From contig NZ_CP035119.1 in NCBI RefSeq assembly GCF_004087835.1, positions 2,108,001 through 2,172,000 of the forward strand: a stretch of 64,000 nucleotides of DNA, written 5' to 3'. The stretch comes from Halorussus pelagicus. GTDB lineage: Archaea > Halobacteriota > Halobacteria > Halobacteriales > Haladaptataceae. The position numbers were made by a program, and so were the translations under genes. The notes beneath the pieces were generated by a model. That model made no database searches, was not told the DNA's origin, and saw nothing but the letters and a program-made list of their open reading frames with translations. This document shows, piece after piece, positions 46,455 through 48,378 of the stretch (its first letter is position 1; the number at the start of each line of letters is the position of its first letter).

Positions 46455-46874
46455 CTACGAGAGACCGGCAGTTCGTCCGCCGAGGTCCGGATTTCGAAGC
46501 GAGTACCGGACTTCGATTTCGTCGTACCACACGACTGGCCGTTTCGCTCGCCCGTCCTGTTCGAGTTCGAGGACGCCGAGTTCGGCGAGTTCGTTTACCG
46601 CGGTCGAGACGTTTTTTACGTCGCGCTCGACGGCACGAGCTAACTCTCGGACGCTCGCTGGCTCGTCGTTCAGCGTCGCCCGGAGCAACGCGAGATTTTT
46701 CGGGTTCAACACCCGGTCGAGTGCTTCTTCGTCCGGCAGACTGAGAACGTGGGTCTCCGCGACCTCGTCGCCTGATTCGAGTCCGCTGAGGTCGTCTAAT
46801 GCGTCTTCGAAAAACGATTCGGCCGATTCGACGCGAATCGTGAGCGTCGTCGGGTCGATTTCTGGTTCGGTCAT
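46455..46874 (-). CDS. HTH DNA-binding protein, putative TumA-type antitoxin
   Basis: The 139-residue protein has a winged helix in its C-terminal half (LLRATLNDEPASVRELARAV with ERDVKNVSTAVNELAELGVL) and an N-terminal acidic part. This is the HVO_A0114-like type of DNA-binding protein seen next to TumE-type toxins. It lies 35 nt downstream of the toxin-like gene on the same strand, so both share a promoter. It would bind the toxin and the two operators upstream. The antitoxin role comes from the neighbour. Confidence 0.75.
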   Translation of the reverse strand: MTEPEIDPTTLTIRVESAESFFEDALDDLSGLESGDEVAETHVLSLPDEEALDRVLNPKNLALLRATLNDEPASVRELARAVERDVKNVSTAVNELAELGVLELEQDGRAKRPVVWYDEIEVRYSLRNPDLGGRTAGLS

Positions 46875-46909: not shown

Positions 46910-47221
46910 TCAGCGGTGCAACTGGAGGTGAACCGGAATTTCCCGAGCGAACTGCCGGAGCAACGTTTCGTATCCCGGAAACTCGACCTCCTCGACGTGT
47001 TCTCCTTCGTGTCTCTCGTGTACGCCGTGGTGGTTGTCGTACCGAAGATACGGAACATCTGCCCCTTTCTCTGCGTAGTGGTACGCGTACTTGACCCCGT
47101 TTGGAAACTTCTCTGAACAGGGGACACGAAGAACGCGAAGTTTCACGATGTCGGTACCAAAGTCACGGCGACGGTCGAAAACGACGACAACATCGTCGCG
47201 GTCGCTCGGAGCCATCGACAT
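46910..47221 (-). CDS. TumE-family toxin-like protein
   Basis: The 103-residue protein matches my memory of the TumE (DUF6516) family: KYAYHYAEKG, LRYDNHHGVHERHEGEH and the final region EFPGYETLLRQFAREI. The His-rich stretch (NHH, HERH, H) could bind metal or nucleic acid. It is the first gene of a two-gene unit with the HTH protein. TumE has been described as the toxin of a TumE/TumA pair. The ATG at 47221 lies 24-27 nt after the TATA-like TCATATT, so the message is leaderless. Confidence 0.75.
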   Translation of the reverse strand: MSMAPSDRDDVVVVFDRRRDFGTDIVKLRVLRVPCSEKFPNGVKYAYHYAEKGADVPYLRYDNHHGVHERHEGEHVEEVEFPGYETLLRQFAREIPVHLQLHR

Positions 47222-47222
47222 A

Positions 47223-47242
47223 TGTTGGTATCATTGCCAACA
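47223..47242. promoter_or_regulatory. Operator 1 of the toxin-antitoxin unit
   Basis: TGTTGG-N8-CCAACA is a perfect 6-bp inverted repeat lying across the predicted transcription start and next to the toxin start codon. A bound HTH antitoxin here would stop transcription. Confidence 0.65.
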
Positions 47243-47249
47243 ATATGAA

Positions 47250-47268
47250 TGTTGGCATTCGGACCAAC
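47250..47268. promoter_or_regulatory. Operator 2 of the toxin-antitoxin unit
   Basis: TGTTGG-N8-CCAAC repeats the same architecture 27 bp upstream of operator 1. The TATA box (47242-47248) lies between the two, so a protein bound to both would cover the promoter. Confidence 0.6.
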
Positions 47269-47298
47269 GAAACTCCGCCAGCAAAATCGAACCGGTCG

Positions 47299-48378
47299 CT
47301 AAATCAAGTCCTCTAGCTCGTCGTTGTGGAACTGCTCGGCCGGGTCCTCGTCGGGTTCGTCGGCCTCCTTGCTCGCTTCCTTCGCGCGTTCGAGGAACTC
47401 CTCGACGCGCTCGGAGCGTTCGACGCCGCCGAGAACGATGAGCGCCGCGAGTCGGTCGCTGTCGAGCGGGAAGTCACCGCCTCGGACCTGTAGACTGCCG
47501 GTCTCCTGTTCGACCCACTTTCGCGCGCGCTCGACGCCCTTTCGCGGGATGGACTCCGGTTGTCCGGCAACGACGAGGAGACCGGAATCGGCCTCGATGG
47601 CGTTCGGGAGGCTAAGATTGCTCAACAGGGCCTTCCGGGTCATCGAGGTCACGGCGTTGACGTTCTCCTCGGCGTCCTCGGCGGCCTTCGCACTGGCGAA
47701 CCCGAGCGTGGCGATACCACCCGAGCGGAGTGTGTTGATGACCTCGCTGGAGTCAACGACGCTCTCGCCGACGCCTTCGACCGCTTCGCCCGAGGCGAAC
47801 AGCAGGCCGACGCGCTGGGCGATGTTCTGGTTTATCTTCTCGAAGGCCTCGCCCATGCTCTCGCCCGAGGTGTGCCACGCGTCATTGTCGATGAGGAGCG
47901 TCGCGTCGGCCTCCCGGACGAGGGTCTTGAGCGAGCGCCCGGCGTTGGCCTGATACATCGCCCCCTCGCCCCGGCCGGGGAGGACGCCGAGTCCGTACAC
48001 CGGAATCTGGTAGACGCGGTTGAGTTCGCGCGCGAGGACGGGCGCGCCGCCCGACCCCGTGCCGCCACCGAGTCCCGCGACGACGAAGATAGCCTCGGCC
48101 TGCGCGGTGATACGGCCGTCCAAGGCGTCCATCACCTGCGTCGCGTCGTTCTGCATGACTTCGGCACCCAACTCGTTGTCACCGCCGACGCCGTGGCCTT
48201 TCACGCGGTCCTGTCCGATCAGCACTGTATCGAGGTCTAGCTCTCGAAGGTCCGCCTTCGCGGAGTTGACAGCGAGGGCTCCCTGTACCGCATCGAAACC
48301 CATCTTCTGGTCGTACTGGGCCAGTCGCTGGGTGAGTTTCCCCCCGGCCTGTCCGACACCAATCAGGACGACTTTCAT
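47299..48378 (-). CDS. CetZ-family tubulin-like GTPase
   Basis: CetZ proteins are archaeal tubulin/FtsZ relatives that control cell shape. The 359-residue protein shows IGVGQAGGKLTQRL, the GTP-binding tubulin signature GLGGGTGSGG and the later synergy-loop region. RVKGHGVGGDNELG is typical for CetZ. The length and sequence look more like CetZ2 than CetZ1 as I remember them from Haloferax, but this is not certain. It has an acidic tail (ELEDLI). It is convergent with no gene; the toxin-antitoxin unit lies next to it on the same strand. Confidence 0.92.
   Translation of the reverse strand: MKVVLIGVGQAGGKLTQRLAQYDQKMGFDAVQGALAVNSAKADLRELDLDTVLIGQDRVKGHGVGGDNELGAEVMQNDATQVMDALDGRITAQAEAIFVVAGLGGGTGSGGAPVLARELNRVYQIPVYGLGVLPGRGEGAMYQANAGRSLKTLVREADATLLIDNDAWHTSGESMGEAFEKINQNIAQRVGLLFASGEAVEGVGESVVDSSEVINTLRSGGIATLGFASAKAAEDAEENVNAVTSMTRKALLSNLSLPNAIEADSGLLVVAGQPESIPRKGVERARKWVEQETGSLQVRGGDFPLDSDRLAALIVLGGVERSERVEEFLERAKEASKEADEPDEDPAEQFHNDELEDLI

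Follow-up and report, generated by a model that had tools for sequence, protein, structure and literature searches.

Paired palindromes around the TATA-like element of a toxin-first TumE/HTH gene pair in Halorussus pelagicus: a predicted autoregulatory operator found across haloarchaea

The TumE-TumA superfamily of toxin-antitoxin systems dates from a 2023 study that assayed bacterial pairs in Escherichia coli: six proteobacterial toxins stopped growth there, and translation was reduced by one of them (PMC10584680). The haloarchaeal gene pair considered here resembles these systems in its TumE domain (PF20126), in its two-gene layout, and in a partner that is predicted to bind DNA. It differs in gene order and in the type of partner: here the TumE gene leads and a winged-helix protein of the HVO_A0114 family accompanies it, whereas in PMC10584680 most toxins lie downstream of their varied partners, those tested being RelB-like; no operator is described in the sections consulted. 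In bacteria, autorepression by HTH antitoxins through two palindromes is already well known, as for HigA and GraA. Regarding the archaeal family, the first-pass annotation of this DNA knew of no described operator, and the open-access journal literature searched, where just two papers mention TumE in connection with toxin-antitoxin systems, likewise contained neither an earlier description of a TATA-framing TumE-HTH operator nor a paper naming HVO_A0114.

The locus lies in a stretch of 64,000 nucleotides of H. pelagicus (contig NZ_CP035119.1, positions 2,108,001 to 2,172,000), referred to below as the window. Both genes are on the minus strand: the TumE-family gene for the predicted toxin (101 aa, 46910..47215) comes first, and a short gap separates it from the gene for the HVO_A0114-family winged-helix protein (PF25212, 139 aa, 46455..46874), the presumed antitoxin and repressor, called the HTH protein hereafter. 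Pfam confirmed both initial assignments, with 40 bits for TumE (PF20126, DUF6516; gathering cut-off 23.4, E 4.1e-10) and 101.7 bits for the HTH protein (cut-off 27.6, E 2e-29); no NCBIfam model scored above cut-off for either. The first possible ATG of TumE is at 47221, but translation most likely starts at the second, at 47215, because relatives conserve MAPSD from there (MAPSDRDD...) and in one of them, L002, the first ATG is replaced by ACG.

The near-invariant residues of TumE are R58, D60, N61, H63, H66, and H69. Its AlphaFold2 model (mean pLDDT 91) has an alpha+beta fold made of a beta-sheet and a helix, with six strands and one long helix called; PMC10584680 gives the TumE fold seven strands and two helices. 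A Foldseek search of the PDB with this model returned no relatives at E<=0.001. The model of the HTH protein is a winged helix with its recognition helix at about residues 86-99, and its PDB neighbours are winged-helix repressors of the ArsR/SmtB/CadC and MarR types. Proteins of the ArsR/MarR type generally bind inverted repeats as dimers.

The upstream neighbour of TumE on the same strand is cetZ, a tubulin-like (CetZ-type) gene at 47302-48378 of the window. The module stands behind this gene in the present genome and in two others (G162 and G610), with the HTH gene only in a further one (G605); it was not seen behind cetZ in the other Halorussus genomes examined (loci L183-L199), a pattern of presence and absence at one site, and the Halorussus genomes that lack the module have no such palindromes behind cetZ. 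The source locus shows synteny and identity with the loci of H. litoreus and H. ruber.

Upstream of TumE, the plus strand reads TGTTGG-TATCATTG-CCAACA at 47223-47242 and TGTTGG-CATTCGGA-CCAACG at 47250-47269, two palindromes of the form 6-N8-6 whose starts are 27 bp apart. On the gene (minus) strand this becomes CGTTGG-TCCGAATG-CCAACA-TTCATAT-TGTTGG-CAATGATA-CCAACA-TATGTCG-ATG, that is, a distal palindrome (CGTTGG-N8-CCAACA, 47250..47269), a TATA-like spacer (TTCATAT, 47243..47249), and a proximal, promoter-side palindrome (TGTTGG-N8-CCAACA, 47223..47242), the latter a predicted dimer site. Single copies of TTGG-N8-CCAA are meaningless because they occur at 19 places in the whole 3.49-Mb genome versus 25 for the reversed control, and a reading of the repeats as chance could appeal to this frequency. 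The pair is another matter: both of the TTGG-N8-CCAA copies in the window are here (0.21 expected), 0 of 100 shuffles of the window contained two, and this is the sole close pair in the genome, the next closest two being about 300 bp apart. In addition, across three Halorussus species the arms show 66/72 pairwise identities and the 8-bp loops 18/48 (Fisher p = 3e-10). The paired palindromes before TumE are a real feature, with the 27-bp offset that the first-pass annotation had reported; chance, refuted by these window shuffles and arm conservation and by the pair counts and genome-wide pattern search given below, retains a probability close to nil.

The consensus of the haloarchaeal TATA box is TTWT (PMC4983044). 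An element of this kind does lie between the palindromes, as first proposed, although TTCATAT is one base off the consensus and is better called TATA-like; the corresponding spacer of H. litoreus, TTTATAT, has the canonical box, and TTWT is present in the equivalent spacer of 53 of 75 related loci against a background of 7%. The TTAT box keeps a constant distance of 2 bp from the proximal palindrome while the spacing of the two sites varies among 27, 28, and 29 bp, the extra 1-2 bp being placed between the distal palindrome and the TATA box. If some 25-27 nt separate the TATA centre from the first transcribed base, transcription would start near 47219-47221; in Haloferax, most transcripts begin no more than 5 nt from the start codon (PMC4983044). 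Counted from such a start, the proximal palindrome probably spans about -3 to -22, abutting the start; the distal palindrome would reach from about -30 to -49, probably across the expected BRE, the site of TFB. The earlier proposal that one site covers the transcription start thus needs amending, since the proximal site probably stops a few bases upstream, between the TATA box and the start.

The same geometry bears on whether the palindromes act as RNA hairpins, either as a terminator of cetZ or as a leader structure. A simple scan does call the distal palindrome terminator-like, and cetZ is transcribed towards it from the same strand, but both palindromes are upstream of the predicted start, they accompany many different upstream neighbours across genera, and their arms vary by clade while the framing of the TATA box stays constant. 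The hairpin or terminator reading was rejected on these grounds and is extremely improbable.

Recurrence was examined in 292 haloarchaeal genomes that gave matches, 155 of them to TumE and 202 to HTH, with about 140 loci retrieved; a pair was scored when two 6-N8-6 palindromes 26-30 bp apart agreed at >=20 of 24 arm positions. The layout is present at 80 of 124 distinct TumE-HTH pairs, which include related genomes and are not independent samples. Markov shuffles gave 1.2, control stretches lying further upstream 6.7, and the DNA before the HTH gene 0; at 21/24 arm positions, 68 pairs compare with 0.1 in shuffles. The repeats, whose absence from orthologous loci was to have spoken against the original idea, are accordingly present at most of them. 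The spacing is 27 bp at 38 loci, 28 bp at 18, and 29 bp at 22, and Haloferax loci carry four perfect TGTTGG arms. Many of the remaining pairs have, by eye, one clear palindrome or an eroded second, and the L026-L030 group, for example, keeps just one clear palindrome.

TumE precedes HTH in every intact pair found, as the toxin-first order noted at the outset had it, and HTH directly follows TumE at all TumE loci except L055, where no HTH gene was found. The conserved linkage of two genes typical of a type II toxin-antitoxin module is present here, and the conservation of the palindromes matches what is expected of an operator at the promoter of an autoregulated type II operon. The toxin-first order is no objection because higBA, mqsRA, hicAB, and rnlAB share it (PMC4803016). 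Outside the haloarchaea, genomes of the same phylum (L171-L180) have TumE followed by the same type of HTH gene, and palindromes with gaps of other lengths (N7 or N9) near the start, such as ATGTGA-N9-TCACAT at L171 and two copies of TATATG-N7-CATATA, 23 bp apart, at L178; these are only suggestive of a deeper occurrence.

Ten haloarchaeal plasmid records contain a relative, and the phage collection searched gave no match. At eight loci (L038, L063, L101, L126, L130, L135, L218, and L222) the TumE match is broken up between two frames or fragments and the neighbouring HTH gene is intact; TumE seems to decay more often than its partner.

The layout was also sought from DNA alone, using YGWTGK-N8-MCAWCR followed by a gap of 7-9 bp and the same motif again. 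Among 391 haloarchaeal genomes this pattern matched in 75, and its reversed control in 0; a second pattern with three mismatches allowed found some further places. We checked 64 matched loci, many of them outside the TumE list, most of the remaining named matches being at TumE loci already collected. All 64 have a TumE and/or an HTH gene directly downstream on the correct strand, namely 59 with TumE and HTH, four with HTH and no recognisable TumE, and one with TumE only, which sits at a contig end where the start of HTH is visible and the rest is cut off. Among the checked loci, the paired layout is restricted to the TumE-HTH gene pair. This matters for the view that an unlinked regulator, for instance a sensor of stress or phage, binds the palindromes and controls the operon: with the pattern limited to this pair, such a trans-acting protein would have the operon as its sole target.

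The half-sites themselves differ by clade, the types being TGTTGG, TGTTGT, TGTTAG, TGATGG, TATTGG, and CTATGG. Mapped on the HTH tree, the half-site type requires 20 changes versus 49.8 with shuffled labels (minimum 43), and the spacing 8 versus 32.9. Mantel correlations of half-site divergence are the same for TumE as for HTH, and the agreement with the tree cannot separate the two proteins because they are inherited together. An unlinked regulator can draw on this tie, and on the HTH protein being a predicted binder; a half-site that changes between clades, and usually between modules of one genome as well, does not suit it. When orthogonality of co-resident modules was considered, modules within one genome were seen to share a half-site in 1 of 18 comparisons, with 2.2 expected (p = 0.35, the types being partly assigned by eye), and to differ in the other 17.

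At L037, L039, L043, and L112, HTH genes or TumE-HTH modules with differing half-sites stand in tandem, the modules of L039 being back to back with TGTTGG at 27 bp and ATATGG at 28 bp. The genome of H. pelagicus itself has a second, divergent TumE-HTH pair (L071, G000:C1:2300883-2302625), where one palindrome, TTTGGCTCTGACCCCAAA, immediately precedes an A/T-rich stretch resembling a TATA box. In the recognition helix, the TGTTAG clade has RHPPEV or RNPPEV and the CTATGK clade RDYKQV. A recognition-helix code for the half-sites was considered and set aside, since in a partial Mantel test the helix did no better than the remainder of the protein, or than TumE, at accounting for them.

Across the spacings of 27, 28, and 29 bp, the rotation of one site against the other changes by about 70 degrees, and the sequences therefore do not require a rigid contact between dimers, and these shifts of 1-2 bp between clades argue against a strict need for one rotational phase. 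A spacing fixed within each clade is compatible with cooperative binding but is not proof of it. It is conceivable, and we put it forward tentatively as something that may well prove otherwise, that the HVO_A0114 antitoxins form a large, diversified set of repressors and operators, in which the scaffold of palindrome, TATA box, and palindrome is fixed, lineages rewrite the half-sites and shift the spacing by 1-2 bp, and co-resident modules, each recognising an operator of its own, escape cross-regulation.

Loci that have lost the toxin indicate to which gene the sites belong. A clean deletion has removed TumE at L228 and L268, where the HTH gene directly follows an intact operator, and at L190, a Halorussus locus with the module in the same place behind cetZ, where the HTH ORF also directly follows the operator and the gap of the proximal site is 5 bp longer; at L223 and L274 the core of TumE is deleted and the palindromes are kept before the HTH gene. 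These five loci belong to different genera. The sites thus outlive the toxin and stay before the HTH gene, which makes the HTH protein the likely binder; at the toxin-less HTH genes L121-L125 the paired layout is lost. Persistence with the HTH gene alone also weighs against the unlinked regulator, which we consider very unlikely. Sequence comparison predicts that the palindromes are almost certainly docking sites for the HTH protein of the pair, and the proposal of an operator for an HTH antitoxin is well supported by recurrence, by the loci of the pattern search, and by this persistence.

A toxin commonly serves as co-repressor in type II systems. A variant of the preferred explanation would make TumE obligatory, so that the TumE-HTH complex and not the HTH protein by itself represses, an arrangement treated in the reviews PMC3920265 and PMC4803016. 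The five loci without a working toxin gene that still carry the palindromes before HTH make this unlikely, even though the losses could be recent or a paralogous toxin could stand in.

Our preferred reading, which we hold to be very probable, is that a toxin-first, type II-like TumE/HTH operon regulates itself through the palindromes as its operator. One dimer of the winged-helix protein would occupy each 6-N8-6 palindrome, the proximal one covering the DNA between the TATA box and the start, where RNA polymerase is loaded and the strands are opened, and the distal one covering the BRE, where TFB binds. Together they would prevent the assembly of TBP, TFB, and RNA polymerase and keep both genes off; when the HTH protein, which is expected to neutralise TumE, becomes scarce, the promoter would open and both proteins would be made again. 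Cooperativity between the dimers, and a possible role of the toxin as co-repressor, are speculative additions.

With this, the archaeal branch of TumE gains a concrete, testable candidate control site with more than 100 natural variants, and a signature in DNA alone that finds TumE/HTH loci with no false matches among the 64 checked. The toxin-less loci with operator and HTH gene indicate which gene owns the operator and suggest that a repressor can survive the loss of its toxin. As a form of archaeal transcription control, a promoter in which both flanks of the TATA box are claimed and the box itself is left free is a clean design, and the panel of operators could be used to study shifts of DNA specificity in winged-helix repressors.

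Among described systems, HigBA and GraTA are similar in having an HTH antitoxin, a toxin gene that comes first in higBA, and two palindromes, bound by two dimers, in the promoter of the operon itself (Pseudomonas HigA and GraA; PMC6987408), the dimers being predicted in our case. They differ in HTH fold and toxin family. A single 28-bp duplex contains both HigA palindromes; ours are 20 bp each and stand apart on the two sides of an archaeal TATA box. Two palindromes, a long and a short one, bound in order and conserved across species, are also known from YefM-YoeB, but these are 12 bp apart from centre to centre and overlap the bacterial -10 element (PMC4803016), and not 27-29 bp apart with the TATA box between them. 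F55 of SSV1 and other archaeal viral repressors block initiation as dimers on sites that overlap the BRE and the start (PMC5569661), the same mode as predicted here, although these are viral ribbon-helix-helix proteins on tandem repeats and no part of a toxin-antitoxin pair. Against this background, what seems new is the placing of paired sites around the TATA box, the occurrence of this architecture throughout the family with half-sites particular to each clade, and the loci without the toxin.
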